The translations under genes were made by a program, and so were the position numbers. Positions 2,772 to 64,000 of a DNA stretch of 64,000 nt are shown here, piece after piece. The notes under the pieces were generated by a model. It saw only the letters and a list, made by a program, of their open reading frames with translations. It searched no databases and had not been told where the DNA came from. Source of the DNA: Prototheca cutis (Eukaryota; Chlorophyta; Trebouxiophyceae; Chlorellales; Chlorellaceae); NCBI GenBank assembly GCA_002897115.2, contig BCIH01000001.1:802745-866744 (forward strand). Direction: 5' to 3'. The stretch's first letter is position 1. Every line of letters begins with the position of its first letter.

Positions 2772-4374
2772 ATGCACATGGCATTGAAAATGTTCAAAGA
2801 GACCGATTTTAACCTGCTTTACGGGGACAGGCGGCAGAATGGCCTTGTCGTTGCGGGGGCTGCCGCTGTGACGGGCGGGCTGGCCGCCCTGACGTGGCTG
2901 GCTTGGCACAGGAGGACTGTGGCACCCACACAGCCCCAGGAAGCACCGGCTGAGGCCGTGGATGACCCCATGGAGCAAGTACCGAACCAACTGGCCTGCG
3001 CGGGCAAGCTGACCAGGGCGGAGGAGGTGCAGGCTGTGTTCCTGGGAGAGCTCAAGGGAGAGCTCATGGCGGTGGAGCACGCCTTGCTGGCGGGCATGCT
3101 GCCGCCGTCTCTGCCAGATCTGGGCTTTTTGGTGACGCTGCAGGGGCTTCAAGTCCTGGATCTCGGGGGCAACGGGCTGCGTGAGCTTCCTTCCGACCTC
3201 TTCCCTGCTCTGCCCAAGCTGGAGGTGCTCAACCTGGCCGGCAACTGCCTGGCAGCGGTCCCGGAGGACGTCGGCACTCTGCGTGCGCTGCGGCGCCTAG
3301 GTCTCAAGGGCAACCGCCTGGCCTCGCTGCCTGCAGGCATCGGAGGCCTGGAGAGCTTGGAAGAGCTGTATCTCACGGACAACCGGCTGGAGACCCTGCC
3401 GCCCGAGATCGGACGCCTGCGGTCGCTGGTCAAGCTACAGGCGTCCTTTAACGCGCTGCACACGCTGCCCGAGGAATTGACACAGCTGCCACGTCTGGAG
3501 CTGCTGCGCGTGGCCTGCTGCAAGATCGAGGCGCTGCCAGGGGCTCTGGCTCGCATGCCGGGCCTTTGCTGGGTCAGCCTGGCAGGCAACCCTGTAGCAA
3601 TGGCCGCCGAAGCAACCTCCGCTCGGCGCCGGCCGTCGCCGCCGGCAGTACCCTTTTCGGCGCTGACCCTGCACCACAGGCTGGGCGACGGCGCCAGTGG
3701 TGAGGTCTACGCGGCATCCTGGGGCGCGCCTGGCGCCCCCCGAGTCGCGGTCAAGCTGTTCAAGGGCGACGTGTCACCCGACGGCCGTGCAGCCGACGAA
3801 GAAAGTGTGGCGTGTGCACTGGCAGACCCTTGCCTCACCCGCGTCCTGGGGCGCGTGGAACGACCCCATGCTCTCGTTCTGGCTCTCGTGGAGGGCAAGC
3901 CCCTGGCCCTCAAGCCCGACCACACCGTGAGACCTGTTTTTCTTCTTGGAATGGGAGAGGTGTGTGTGTGTGGGTGGGTGGGTGGGTGGTGGTCAAGTGA
4001 ACAGTCTGATCTCCTCCCTCCCCTTCTAAAAAAACACCACTTTTGAATTACACAGAGTCTGCTGCGGTGTCGGTGGCAGCCGGGGACACGGTATTGCCTG
4101 GCGGTACTGCTGCGCATCGCGCACGGTGTGGCAGCTGCACTGCAGCACATGCACTCGCTGGGCATCGCCCATGGCGACGTCTACGCTCACAACGTGCTTG
4201 CCAACACCACTGGAGACCCCGTCCTCGTCGACTATGGTATGGTTTGGGGGGGGGGGGGGGGGGGGGGGGGGCAAAAAACCCCCCCCCCCCCCCCCCCCCA
4301 AAAAAAAACACAATAAAAAACCCCCCGCGCGCGGCCTGTCTCCCCCCCCCCCCCCCCCGCCCCCCCCCCCCCCC

Positions 4375-4469
<95 letters not shown>

Positions 4470-5072
4470 CGGCGCATATAGACCCCATACTGCTGCAACC
4501 TTCAAAAATATCCATTACATAATCCTCCGCACAGGTGCGTCCTTTTGGTACAACCGCCAACGGGACGCGCACTTTGAGGCACAGGAGGTGCAGGCCTACG
4601 GTTTCCTGCTGGCAGGCCTCTTGCAGCAACTGGACATCAGCTTCCAAGGTAGCAGTCTTTTTGTTGTGGGGTGAATGGACAGGGAAGGAGGGAGGGGTGA
4701 AATTGATCTGCAGGTCTGGTTGATGTGACTTCTTTCGCTTTTCAGTTGCATTTCAAGTTGAATATTCAACCCCCCCTCCTGCGATGCTTCGTGCACCCTT
4801 TCTTGCTCCGAGCTTCACACGCACTGGAGTCCCCTCCCAAACCAGCAGACATGGAGGAGGAGCTGAGCTTGCAAAAGGCACTGCTGGCTCTGGTGCAGGC
4901 GTGTCGGAACCCAACCCCGGGCAAGCGGCCGAGCTTTGCATCCATTGCGGCCCGCCTGCGGACCTTCCAGCGGTCCAGTCGTGCCGCAGGGGCCACGAGC
5001 AGGGAACAGGCGGCGGAGACGCTACGGTCCTCCCGCATTGTCCTCAGCGATCGCAGCAGTGAAGATGCATGA
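2772..5072 (+). CDS. membrane-anchored LRR protein kinase
   Basis: Exons 2772-3926, 4056-4236, 4535-4648 and about 4813-5072 (last acceptor weak), about 569 residues. Residues 25-47 are hydrophobic and may be a membrane anchor. About seven leucine-rich repeats span residues 115-275 (for example LQVLDLGGNGLRELPSDLF). The kinase domain starts near residue 296: glycine loop GDGASGEV, VAVK lysine, catalytic loop HGDVYAHNVL (HGD in place of HRD), metal motif DYG in place of DFG, then an E-A-Q-E-V-Q-A-Y-G segment and an R-P-S-F end motif. K, D, N and D catalytic residues are all kept, so it may be active. A plant family with LRR followed by an HGD-type kinase is similar. Intron 2 holds very long G and C runs. 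The ligand and substrate cannot be inferred. Confidence 0.8.
4246..4469. repeat. G26 / C21 / interrupted C / G63 homopolymer block in intron
   Basis: Inside intron 2 of the LRR-kinase gene (4237-4534). G-run 4246-4271 starts ten bases after the donor, followed by C-run 4279-4299, interrupted C-runs about 4343-4406, and G-run about 4407-4469. The G and C arms can pair. Exact lengths may be assembly-dependent. Confidence 0.85.
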
Positions 5073-59232: not shown

Positions 59233-61621
59233 AAAAAACACTCACTAGACGTTATCACCCGCGTGGTCTTGGAGCTTCTTGTTGCAGGTCTTGCCGTTAA
59301 AGGGCAGGGGGCAGGCCGGGTAGTACATGTTTTCATTGCGCAGAAATGTGACGGTGGCCACGACCTGAACCCAGGCGGGCGTGCCGCCCAGGCCCAGCCC
59401 TTCCTCGCCAATCTGCGCCAGCGTCACGCGCCGGTCAGAGCGACCGCCGCCTGCACCCGCCCGGCTCAGCGCCTCGGACGCCTGTGCTGCACCGCCGCCG
59501 TCGTACCTGCAGCAAGTGGTGCGATGTGAGGTGTTGTGTGTTTGTCCTGCTGGAATGGTCTGACAATACACAGCAGCAGTCCAAACTCGGCGAAAGGGGA
59601 AACAACAACAAGCAAACAAACTCCCTCGCTCGCGGGGGTCTCCAGAGCTCTCCAGGACTCTGCATCTCCCCCTCTCACACACACCACACCACCCCCAAGT
59701 CCACACCAGGCGCGGAGCTGGATGGCCTCGGGCACGTCTGGAGGGTCGAGCACGAGCGTGGAGGAGGCCACGGTACTGAGGGTTTTGCCGTTAAAGTCGC
59801 CCACGCGCGCGTTCTTCACCGCCAGCACGGGGTGCCTGCCCCCGGCCACCGCCGCCTTAATGGTCTCGCCCTGCTGCAGGGCAAACGCTCCCCACAGCGT
59901 CACCTCGATCGACCGACCGCTTTCGTCCCTGTGCGTGTGCGTGTGCGTGTGCGTGCGTGTTTGGGCGGGAGGGAGTCTTGATAAAGTGTATGTGTGTCTT
60001 TTGGGGCCCCTGCCGTTGTTGTCAGAAAAGGCTCGAATGCCTGAGATGACCCAACAGCGCAACACCCACTGCACAACAACAAACTCCCTACCGAATGATG
60101 ATGGGCCGCTTTTGCGTCTCAGTGTGGTCGCGCTTGATAATGGAGGACCAATCGTGCGCGGCGTCCACCACGCCTGCGGCATCATGCGTGGGGTCGGGGG
60201 GCGCGCGTGGGTGCTACGGTCGTGCATTCATTGCTAGGTCGTCCCGACAGCCAGTCCACACAGAGGAAGTCGGACCCCCTGGGGCAGCGCCCGGCTCGGC
60301 ACCCGTAAATCCCCCATAGGTTTGCGCGCCCGGCCCCCCCCCCCCCCCCCCCCCGATGATGCCCTCCCTCACCGACAACGTCGACCATCTGGCCGGCCGG
60401 AACCTCCTCCAAGTGCGAGATGGGTGTGAACTGCAGACAATGGCGGAAGAAAGAGGGCTGGGGTTGTTGGCTATGGCTATGGCCACTCCTCTTGACCTCC
60501 ATCATGGCACAGCCCACTTCCCTACAAGCATGGGCCCCCTTGGGACACCCCCCCACAACTCTGGCATGCCCATGCCGCCCCCTCCACCCACCCACCCACA
60601 CCCACCGAGAAGCGGAGCTGTGGGATTTCACCGTCGTCAGCAATCGGCTCCACGATCGACGCCTCCTCCAAATGGATCTCCAGCTTGTGCTGTGTCTGGT
60701 TGAAATTCTGCACAGGCAGGCGGGCACGGGCTGGGTGGCTTGTTTATCAGGTGCTGTTGTTCTAGTGTTGCTTTGGGGAGGGCAGCGTGCATGCAAGTCC
60801 CATGCAGTACATGTGGATCGCAGTGCCTCACGTCATTCTGGGCCCCACTTCTCCCCCTAGGCCCCCAAACACCAGCTGACGCACCCCGCGCTTGTTGCGG
60901 AGGCTGGCTTTGGAGATCATGTAGACCCGGCCCACCTCAATCGCCTCAAACCACTTGTCACACTGGATTCGTCAGAGGGGGAGCTGTATGCGGTGAATGG
61001 CGAGGCCCGAAGGACATGCGCCCCAACAAGCGCGCAAACAGGCCCGCAGAAGTCGCATGGTCAATGTGCCCCCTATTCCCAACCCACAAACAGGGCCTCA
61101 TCAAACCACATACAGACAAGAAAGACGCACCACGGTATTCCAGCCTACAGCCCGAATCTCGCCGCCCTGAGCGTCCAGCAGGTCGAATGAGAAAAATTTA
61201 CCCTGGCCCCTGTTATTGGTGTACCTGCAAAAGAACGGGATATTCTGTGATTTGATCAGTGTGTGTCAATGTGCGAGGGTGCTAGTGTGTGCGCGTGCGT
61301 GTGCGCCCCTGTTGCTCTCTTTCTGCTGGAAAATCCAAGTTTGTCGGTGCTGTATGGGGAAATCATGCCCGCCTCCCTGGGAAATGCCACCACCAGCATC
61401 ATCACCTTGCATCCTGCCTCCAAACCCTCCCATGCCACTTCCCATGCCCCCCCCCCCCCCCCCCCCCCCCCCCCGCCTCTGGCAAGCCGCGCCTCCACTG
61501 CGCCACGGCCCAACACACCATCGGAGGCGATCCGCCGNCTGTATTTTTTGGGGGTGGGTGGATTAAGGATATTTTTGGGGGAACTTTTGATCATGCAGAC
61601 AAAAACCCACCTCTTCAATAT

Positions 61622-61681
<60 letters not shown>

Positions 61682-63330
61682 CACACATACACACACACAC
61701 ACCCCACACCAACCCACGTGCGCTGGTCACTCTTGTGCGTCACGCGCGCCTTTACGGTCCACCGATTCTGGTAGACATTGAGCGATGCGATGGGCATGAT
61801 GGTCGCCGGCGCTGCGTCGCGAACCACCGCCCCCTGCCCACGGTACTGAGGCGGGCCTGTGCAAAAGATGAAAAGGCGGGGCATGAATCAGTGAGCACGC
61901 GACGAGACGGGGCGCCCATTGGTAACAATCTGACTTGCCAGCACTGAGTCCATGCACTCCCACAACAGAGAAACAGCCCTGTTGTCGACATCCCACACCA
62001 TGCTCCAACTATCCCCTTCCGCCGACCGACCGACACGCCCCAGCTTCCCATCACCATTTCCTTCACACACGCGCACCGGTCGGAGGGGCGCCATAGGGTC
62101 GGGCGGCAGACGGGTACGCGGCGGGAATGCTGCCACCAGCGCCACCATAGGCACCCGTTCCGGTCCCGGGCAGCCCATAGGGGGAAGGCTTGTCCTGATA
62201 AACACTTTGAGGAGGCGCGCCATAGGCCGGTGCCGAGATAGCTGATGGGGGTGGGGCGCCGTAGGCCGGGGGTGGGGCACCGTAGGCCGGTACAGCTCCC
62301 CCAGAAGGTGGAGCACTGTAGGGCGCCGCAGGACCCCCGGAAGGTGGAACGCCGTAGGCTGGCACGCTCCTTGGTGGCGCGTCGTATGCTGGCGGCGCTG
62401 CAGGAGCCGCCTGTGCAGTTGGTGGAGCCCCATACACTGAGGTTGGGGCAGGCGGCACGCCATAGGCTGGCGCCGGCGCCGGCGCGGTGGCGGGGGGTGC
62501 CCCGTAAGCTGGCACTGGTGTGGTCGCGGGGGGTGCNTGTGCGGGGGCACCACTGCCGTTGGCATCGGGCAGAGGCTTGCCCAGCACGGCAGGGTCCGTG
62601 AAGGGCACGGGCTGCCCAATCCTGGGGAACTGTGGCTGGATGACCTTGCAGTCCACCACCACCACGACTCTGCACAGCGTGCAAGGGCGGACAGGGGGCC
62701 TCTGGTTCCGCATGCGGTGCGGGCGCTAGGCGATTGCAGCGGCGGTGCTGTTGCCATCCAATCGAGGACGTGTCCCCACCATGCATGATCCACCACAGCC
62801 AGTTGGGGGTGGGGCATGCTCGGAAACTATTCAGCGGCGCCACGTTCCGTAGTATGACTCATTCATTGCCTCATTTCCTCCCCAGGGCACTCCGCTCGAG
62901 GGCCCTCTCTCCAGGACTTTCAGCTCCAAGACCCGCCCCTCCCCCACATCCTCCACGCCTCACCTCTTTCCATGCATGAAGCCGCAGGTGTACACAGGGA
63001 TCTGAAGGACGCTGCCCTCCTTGATCTGGGCCACATCCACCTGGTTGGCCAGGATGCAGACAAACTGGAACTCGCCGTCAGAAAGCATGACCCTGTGCCG
63101 CACCTGGCCGTCCGGCCTGGTGATCTGTTTGATGCCTGCGCGGGGTCACGGGGGTGGAGCATGGTGCTGGGGCCCCCGACGGACATGGTGCGCGGCTGGG
63201 AACGGGCAAGGGCGACCAAGCAAGGCTCCCCCCCGGCTGCCCTACCCAGGCACTGGACGGTGTAAGTCTGGAGCGGGCCATCGGAGAGCATGCCCGCGAT
63301 GGCCCCGCGGGACAGCTGAGTCCCACTCAT
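57950..63330 (-). CDS. RPA1: replication protein A large subunit (RPA1)
   Basis: Fifteen exons: 63246-63330, 62964-63135, 62077-62669, 61718-61856, 61131-61224, 60885-60962, 60606-60707, 60373-60430, 60092-60173, 59707-59928, 59246-59506, 58893-59002, 58703-58785, 58153-58534 and 57950-58035, 848 residues, all phase-consistent. Domains: RPA1N at residues 1-90 ([20 protein letters not shown]); a 190-residue linker of YGAPP-type repeats; DBD-A and DBD-B at about 285-545 ([54 protein letters not shown]); DBD-C with zinc finger at about 600-640 (YYPACP, TCNKK, YYCERC); then a glycine-rich tail. Role: binds single-stranded DNA in replication, repair and recombination, in the RPA1-RPA2-RPA3 trimer. 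Several introns hold long G/C runs. N at 62537. Confidence 0.95.
58550..58570. repeat. G21 run (sense C21) in RPA1 intron 13
   Basis: On the transcript it is a C-run shortly before the acceptor of exon 14. Confidence 0.9.
59144..59230. repeat. C-run of about 87 with one A (sense G-run) in RPA1 intron 11
   Basis: Interrupted only at 59196. On the transcript it directly follows the donor and a T8 run. Exact length may be assembly-dependent. Confidence 0.88.
60334..60354. repeat. C21 run (sense G21) in RPA1 intron 8
   Basis: Starts on the transcript about 18 bases after the donor of intron 8. Confidence 0.88.
61447..61474. repeat. C28 run (sense G28) in RPA1 intron 4
   Basis: Second of two C-runs within intron 4 (61225-61717). 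Confidence 0.88.
61623..61679. repeat. C57 run (sense G57) in RPA1 intron 4
   Basis: On the transcript it lies about 38 bases after the donor, after a GT-rich stretch. Confidence 0.88.
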
Positions 63331-63568
63331 GATGTTAAACTCACTAAATGTAGGAACATGTAAATCATCGATTCCTGTGTGCGAGACAGGCCCGAGTAGG
63401 AATTCGACGATAGATTCGTGAGCCGACACGCAGTTTCAGATTCGCTCACGGGACAGTCCGTCCGCTATGCAAATCCGGGGACTCCCGGCACCTGTTCAAC
63501 GGTACCGAATTCTAGTGGCAGAAAAGCCCATTTGGGAATCATGTTGGGTGCCAAAATGAATCGGACAT

Positions 63569-63782
63569 TCAGAACAGGCGGGGGTCTCTGCAGGGAAGGG
63601 CTCTAGAGTCTGCGCCAGTCTCCATCAGCTGCAGCGCCACGTAGCGGATGTTGCGGGCCGCGTTGGCGTCGTGGTTCCACTCCTCGCTACAGCCGGGGTG
63701 ATGCCATTTCCAGACAGCGTAGTTGTCCCTGGCCTCCGGGAAGTTGCCCATCGCCGTCGATACCAGCCGCGCTGTCTCCGAC
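63569..63782 (-). CDS. last exon of a probable Fanzor/TnpB-like protein (partial)
   Basis: Minus-strand exon starting after TTGCAG at 63788-63783 and ending TGA at 63571-63569, coding 70 residues. The core VWKWHHPGCSEEWNHDANAA continuing RNIRYVALQ matches the C-terminal zinc-ribbon and RuvC-III block of TnpB/OrfB and of eukaryotic Fanzor proteins, where the pattern is Cys-x2-Cys, x-R-D-x-N-A-A-x-N-I. The Asp in HDANAARN would be the third RuvC catalytic acid. Odd: one cysteine (PGC) plus two histidines stand where two cysteines are usual, so the zinc site may be altered or lost. Upstream exons lie beyond the window. It sits about 240 bases upstream of RPA1, same strand. It could also be a degraded copy or a domesticated descendant. 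The family call rests on this short block. Confidence 0.55.
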
Positions 63783-63890
63783 CTGCAATGAGCAAGGCCA
63801 TGCTCAGAGGGGTGTAGGGGGCCTGCTACAGTGCTGCACCATTGCTTTCCCGCCTTTCTGCATGGTTCCTCCTCTCTCTCCCCACAGGCC

Positions 63891-63891
<1 letters not shown>

Positions 63892-63941
<50 letters not shown>

Positions 63942-63949
63942 CCTCGACA

Positions 63950-64000
<51 letters not shown>
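63892..64000. repeat. (AC)n microsatellites at right edge
   Basis: Two AC arrays, 63892-63939 and 63952-64000 (running off the window), inside the intron upstream of the Fanzor-like exon. The run at the window end may explain a contig break nearby. Confidence 0.92.

Follow-up and report, generated by a model that had tools for sequence, protein, structure and literature searches.

Known Fanzor elements and the present locus

Fanzors are RNA-guided DNA-cutting enzymes of eukaryotes. In canonical prokaryotic TnpB proteins the catalytic Glu precedes the zinc ribbon by about 50 residues, and RuvC-I has a D-hydrophobic-G motif. PMC10711439 gives DPG together with a Glu placed six residues ahead of the zinc ribbon as the Fanzor fingerprint, and TDG in the WED as a Fanzor1 motif. 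The guide RNA of SpuFz1 is placed between the stop codon and the right end (PMC10432273). The Fanzor1 elements CRe-1, -2 and -3 of Chlamydomonas reinhardtii are multi-exon, with 150 CRe-1 loci that were TSD-flanked or counted; 5' truncation and internal deletion are frequent among the CRe elements, 3' ends are kept, TSDs are about 7-19 bp and short foreign DNA is sometimes present at the 5' side (PMC3627910). The same paper gives CMe-1A of Cyanidioschyzon merolae about 150 copies of about 3 kb, with no TIR found (PMC3627910), and in Auxenochlorella the most abundant repeat encodes a Fanzor (PMC12633428).

The locus described here lies in a window of 64,000 nucleotides from Prototheca cutis (C1:802745-866744), within a searched genome of 19,886,974 bases (19.9 Mb) on 23 contigs. 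It adds a member to the known Fanzor1 element type and is very probably what remains, truncated on the 5' side and decayed, of a transposable element that carried Fanzor1. By description, its family resembles CRe-1, -2 and -3 in being a multi-exon Fanzor1 of high copy number with truncated or deleted copies, kept 3' ends and occasional foreign 5' DNA. It differs from the CRe elements in that Helitron2 ends were not established here and candidate TSDs were seen in a minority of copies only. By description it is also like the Auxenochlorella case, with a Fanzor as the leading repeat in a compact genome (about 22 Mb there), and like CMe-1A, where a small genome likewise holds some 150 copies and no TIR was found. 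In itself the locus, the end piece of a dead transposon copy, is unremarkable. The notable point is its setting: in a eukaryotic genome of 20 Mb, at least about 139 separate copies of the Fanzor C-terminal exon, falling into three or more lineages, occur together with six unbroken exons that reach from RuvC-I to the alternative Glu. In such a genome one could study what service a Fanzor renders its transposon, whether guide RNAs are supplied in trans by internally deleted copies, and what insertions do near gene starts.

The exon and its boundaries

The features of the locus, in window coordinates, are as follows.

62960 to 63330, minus strand: first coding pieces of RPA1, with the start codon at 63330-63328
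63349 to 63385, minus strand: further stretch common only to the window and its inverted twin, inside the 97% match 63349-63750
63386 to 63571, minus strand: element 3' region behind the stop codon, which occurs at 8 places of the genome, counting this one, with 77-100% identity; across the family the element ends near 63398
63569 to 63782, minus strand: exon-like frame with its stop codon at 63569-63571 and an acceptor-like ATTGCAG (CAG) ending at 63783
63572 to 63750, minus strand: Fanzor-derived coding remnant with a degraded second zinc knuckle, WHHPGC, and the RuvC-III block NHDANAARNI; identical to the inverted twin and aligned with relatives
63746 to 63874, minus strand: DNA replacing the first zinc knuckle, not Fanzor; an 86% copy lies at C6:191621-191747
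63892 to 64000, no strand: (AC)n microsatellite reaching the window edge, followed in the assembly by 10,763 N (C1:866745-877507)

The sequence-only reading had proposed a 70-residue exon at 63569-63782, and the exon is real: it has an open minus-strand frame, an acceptor-like site and 118 matches in the same genome. The frame runs over 63572-63784 up to a TGA at 63569-63571, its letters including ...GNFPEARDNYAVWKWHHPGCSEEWNHDANAARNIRYVALQLMETG..., and all 118 of the candidate places scored matched its 71 residues (E up to 0.07), which puts the exon far beyond chance. The best match other than itself, 92% identical with an E-value of 7.9e-41, is an inverted twin at C1:878729-878923 on the opposite strand (L032). 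The frame stands as it had been described, but the family part is confined to 63572-63750, with 59 whole residues; about twelve residues at the start of the frame derive from other DNA and do not belong to the Fanzor family.

Comparison with the twin fixes this boundary. The two copies are identical over 365 bases (63386-63750), and the match continues at 97% to 63349. At 63750 they diverge, the twin running into CSNC, the first zinc knuckle, and the window running into the DNA that is copied on C6. No Fanzor exon matched at C6:191621-191747 in genome searches with either the window exon or the complete exon of the largest subfamily. The zinc ribbon of the window copy is consequently incomplete, without its first CxxC knuckle and with WHHPGC as the second. 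The RuvC-I DPG and the alternative Glu are absent from the readable DNA of this copy, the assembly consisting of N over C1:866745-877507, an assembly gap or a withheld stretch in which upstream exons might lie.

Copies and lineages in the genome

A search with a complete exon from the largest subfamily found at least 150 places that encode the zinc-ribbon/RuvC-III exon (150 of 150 scored matched, from 263 candidates, the candidate numbers being first-look counts and lower bounds). Once pieces within 300 bases were joined, at least about 139 separate copies remained among those scored. So many matches across the genome indicate a dispersed repeat and not a single gene. The exon from RuvC-I to the alternative Glu was found at 34 places from 36 candidates (29 after joining), six of which, the query included, are free of stops over 235 or more of the 237 residues. 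The 5' end of lineage C occurs at 40 places or more (40 of 40 scored matched; 118 candidates). Both element ends were matched at 21 separate loci, L042 and L045 without the last 35-41 bases, and several of these have most of the coding core deleted. Judged from these end, locus and exon counts, element ends turn up more often than core sequence, a pattern like that of internally deleted derivatives.

BLAST comparison of 24 loci separated at least three groups.

Lineage A: the window, L032, L033, L051, L053 and L054, with L052 more distant
Lineage B: L046 to L049, elements of about 1.5 kb
Lineage C: L034 to L045 and most of L009 to L030

L043, a lineage C copy with both ends, is about 4.9 kb long, some 0.9 kb of the L034 core being missing from it, and one lineage A copy, L051, bears a 5' end of lineage C type. 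Words of at least 8 bases common to the 5' and 3' flanks were found in four of 13 copies (L037 with 11, L017 with 9, L040 and L041 with 8) and in 7 of 156 mismatched flank pairs (Fisher p 0.005, the pairs not being independent); the word in L040 may be element sequence, as the 5' flank of L051 is similar. Inspection by eye established no terminal inverted repeat, and a Pfam scan of five frames from the 5' part of lineage C elements gave no transposase and one weak LGFP match.

The lineage A element on C7 (L033) contains a 692-residue open frame with all the motifs, a length that takes in unread letters and an intron left unspliced. A second, degenerate copy of its last exons follows some 0.8-1.3 kb past the stop of that frame, and it is to such a distal degenerate copy that the window exon corresponds. 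In the degenerate set the alternative-Glu stretch is shortened, reading WAKRTQEVDTSK in L033 and WAKRTQEVDTSE in the twin L032. The second sets of L033 (C7:273500-281000) and L032 (L032:2508-4109) are 87% alike over 1.6 kb. In L036 a Fanzor copy is partly duplicated in direct orientation (L036:3006-3195 and 3722-4567) on either side of a 100-base N run; the duplicated parts, C5:1143573-1144196 and 1144295-1144999, are perhaps an assembly artefact.

Fanzor identity of the family

The intact-looking members of the family carry the Fanzor fingerprint. RuvC-I reads GIDPG in L034, L035, L036 and L037 and GFDPG in L033. The alternative Glu lies six residues before the zinc ribbon, in VDEFRTSQ or VDEFNTSQ, followed across a predicted intron by ICSAC or VCSNC; the splice joining these two exons is deduced from the sequence. 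The frames of L034-L037 contain VDEFRTSQ, a CSAC knuckle (with one residue unread in L037), a second knuckle and NRDVNAARNI (NRDVNAAGNI in L035), and L033 contains VDEFNTSQ, CSNC, CQNLDC and NRDVNAARNI. The zinc ribbon and the RuvC-III Asp, in CSAC..C.SC and WNRDVNAARNI, can be aligned with distant Fanzor-like proteins. The Fanzor1 motif is present as TDG in L034 and L036 and as SDG in L033. A prokaryotic TnpB with the canonical Glu was considered and rejected: G replaces the Glu at the aligned MGNASF region, and RuvC-I is DPG.

A profile search, proposed earlier as a check on the exon, fell short for the exon itself and succeeded for its relatives. Against Cas12f1-like_TNB (PF07282), the window exon alone gave an E-value of 0.01 and the exon of the twin 4.6e-5, both below the cut-off, but the frames of relatives scored above it (L034:772-3288, 1.4e-12; L033:2894-4969 on the minus strand, 1.2e-7; L046:6169-7071, 1.1e-7). 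On L034 the NCBIfam model guided_TnpB reached an E-value of 1.5e-6, but its 27.8 bits fell well under the cut-off of 100.

A profile built from two frames of this genome and five distant proteins matched the PDB entries of SpuFz1 (2.8e-32), GtFz1 (3.6e-23) and PpFz1 (7.5e-23), and Fanzor1 structures were top-ranked with profiles A3 and A6. The profile of the family RuvC exon alone (A5) matched no Fanzor in the PDB, and the family's own C-terminal exon profile alone (A4) matched no Fanzor1 there, giving instead LaTranC (1.5e-4) and the TnpB-like L79 (0.0027). The score link to Fanzor1 therefore runs through the distant relatives, of which there are at least six proteins (E 9.0e-13 to 3.0e-4, among the 7972 scored candidates sharing most words). 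A single-sequence PDB search with L034:772-3288 matched mainly low-complexity chains, because the unspliced intron translates as glycine runs. Viral contigs searched with profile A3 gave two stretches and none was confirmed, a search with one peptide pattern that says little about viral relatives. A closer relative, P0007, is 43% identical (E 2.1e-60) and has MDFG in place of DPG. This protein of 551 aa comes from a 3102-base contig of a public assembly, and by eye its C-terminus is closely like subfamily B, which suggests the same or a related organism sequenced elsewhere.

The earlier assignment to a TnpB/Fanzor C-terminus is thereby upheld, for a Fanzor1-like family, by the place of the last 59 residues within it, by the fingerprint of the relatives and by the profile match to SpuFz1. 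Intact-looking members share with the solved Fanzor1 structures (SpuFz1, PDB 8gkh; GtFz1, 9cer; PpFz1, 9cf0) the order RuvC-I, alternative Glu, zinc ribbon and RuvC-III. In comparison with those structures, the window copy retains the last 59 residues only, and the profile link requires the distant relatives.

A probable relic of the element

Constraint was estimated for the window exon against six relatives, giving dN/dS values of 1.26, 1.02, 0.99, 0.93, 1.11 and 0.91 (six of six comparisons), small-number estimates based on 52-57 codons with 3-11 synonymous changes; pairwise values among the same relatives were 0.56-1.46. For intact-looking lineage C copies, ten of twelve comparisons gave dN/dS values of 0.24-0.48, and the other two gave 0.88 and 0.92. 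As the twin is identical, values near 1 describe the distal exon of lineage A and not the window copy alone. No constraint at the protein level was seen on the lineage of the window exon (0.91-1.26). The four coding gaps among six aligned lineage A copies, 9, 6, 3 and 6 bases long, are each divisible by three, which hints at coding constraint in the past and speaks against pure drift. No difference in conservation was seen between the coding remnant and the 3' region of the window copy; Fisher p lay at 0.17-0.54 for five comparisons and was 1.0 against the identical twin.

The locus is most likely a relic, fitting the published picture of Fanzor1 elements, and the window copy is not a candidate RNA-guided system. 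That the exon is instead the last one of a working Fanzor gene, with an altered zinc ribbon and its other exons hidden in the N stretch, is very unlikely. The frame is open, the acceptor-like site is present, the RuvC-III Asp is retained and the twin beyond the N stretch carries an intact-type exon tail at its edge, but the first knuckle is gone with C6-type DNA in its place, dN/dS is near 1, and the matching exons of the twin are a degenerate second set without the alternative-Glu stretch. The readable gene that had been expected is not borne out, the copy being cut at 63750 with N beyond 64000. Likewise the 'modified zinc site' is better explained by decay: CSNC stands upstream in the twin, and in place of the WHHPGC of this copy the intact-looking C7 relative has CQNLDC. 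An exapted exon, in which the frame 63572-63784 forms the last exon of a host gene with a Fanzor-derived end, is extremely unlikely; the frame does stay open across the join with the foreign DNA and has the acceptor-like site, yet no constraint was seen and no other exon was recognised.

The identity of 365 inverted bases on either side of an N run also raises the question of whether window copy and twin are one locus duplicated by mis-assembly, and the small gap in L036 is likewise flanked by a direct duplication. This too is improbable, as the copies differ on both sides: upstream of 63750 the window has other DNA, and below 63386 substitutions and a 9-base gap are followed by different flanks.

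In the preferred reading, that of a truncated and decayed copy, the coding remnant and 3' region are members of a dispersed repeat family in which the copies that look intact code for a protein bearing the Fanzor fingerprint, and the window copy stops at 63750. Living elements would produce a Fanzor1 nuclease, with a guide RNA read from the element 3' end into the flank. Copies would have spread by transposition, often with internal deletion or 5' truncation, and the present fragment, probably inserted or rearranged just upstream of RPA1, would yield no working nuclease.

The 3' region and a possible guide RNA

A guide RNA had been suggested at 63331-63568, and the window gave little sign of one. 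Folded as RNA, 63386-63568 reached -59.5 kcal/mol (z -1.22), with 19 of 200 shuffles equally good, and a search of the whole window against Rfam at gathering thresholds gave 0 matches.

For the subfamily C 3' ends, folding of three of the 25 aligned ends in whole gave z of -3.89, -3.03 and -2.78, and a 29-base piece gave -0.56. By this structure and by analogy with SpuFz1, a guide RNA at these ends is plausible, and the putative RNA would run about 15 nt past GTACCCCAC into the flank. The terminal stem GUGGGGU...ACCCCAC has 93.8% of cells paired; its covariation of 0.044 equals that of the shuffles, 0.044 (260 of 500 as high). A hand-drawn terminal hairpin for the 25 ends was rejected, as the RNAalifold consensus differs and none of 20 pairs changed on both sides. 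The hand-drawn structure had 92.3% of cells paired, 29.6-53.8% when slid by 1-3 columns and 92.5% in shuffles, with one compensatory change. With pairing much as in the shuffles and that one change, no covariation is claimed.

The RPA1 neighbour

RPA1 was confirmed as the neighbour on modest evidence. The Pfam scan of its pieces gave Rep-A_N on one (E 6e-4; 20.2 bits, below the cut-off of 26.7) and PF01336 on another (E 0.053), and no match for the first coding piece. Further pieces look RPA1-like by eye. Both gene and element lie on the minus strand, and the element DNA upstream of the start codon stops 18 bp short of it (63349), or 67 bp short by the family-wide end (63398). There is hardly any likelihood that the fragment has been reused, its 3' end serving as leader or promoter of RPA1 and as a solo guide-RNA scaffold with the RPA1 5' flank as guide, such that intact Fanzors elsewhere could bind, cut or regulate RPA1.

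The RPA1-like gene has, by eye, an apparent long linker rich in AYGAPP-like repeats (62063-62600, minus strand), which separates its N-terminal piece from the first of the DNA-binding OB folds. Introns and spacers contain long runs of poly-C and (AC)n at 60333-60355, 61449-61475, 61623-61679 and 63892-64000, and such runs translate as glycine- or proline-like runs, also within Fanzor introns such as that of L034.
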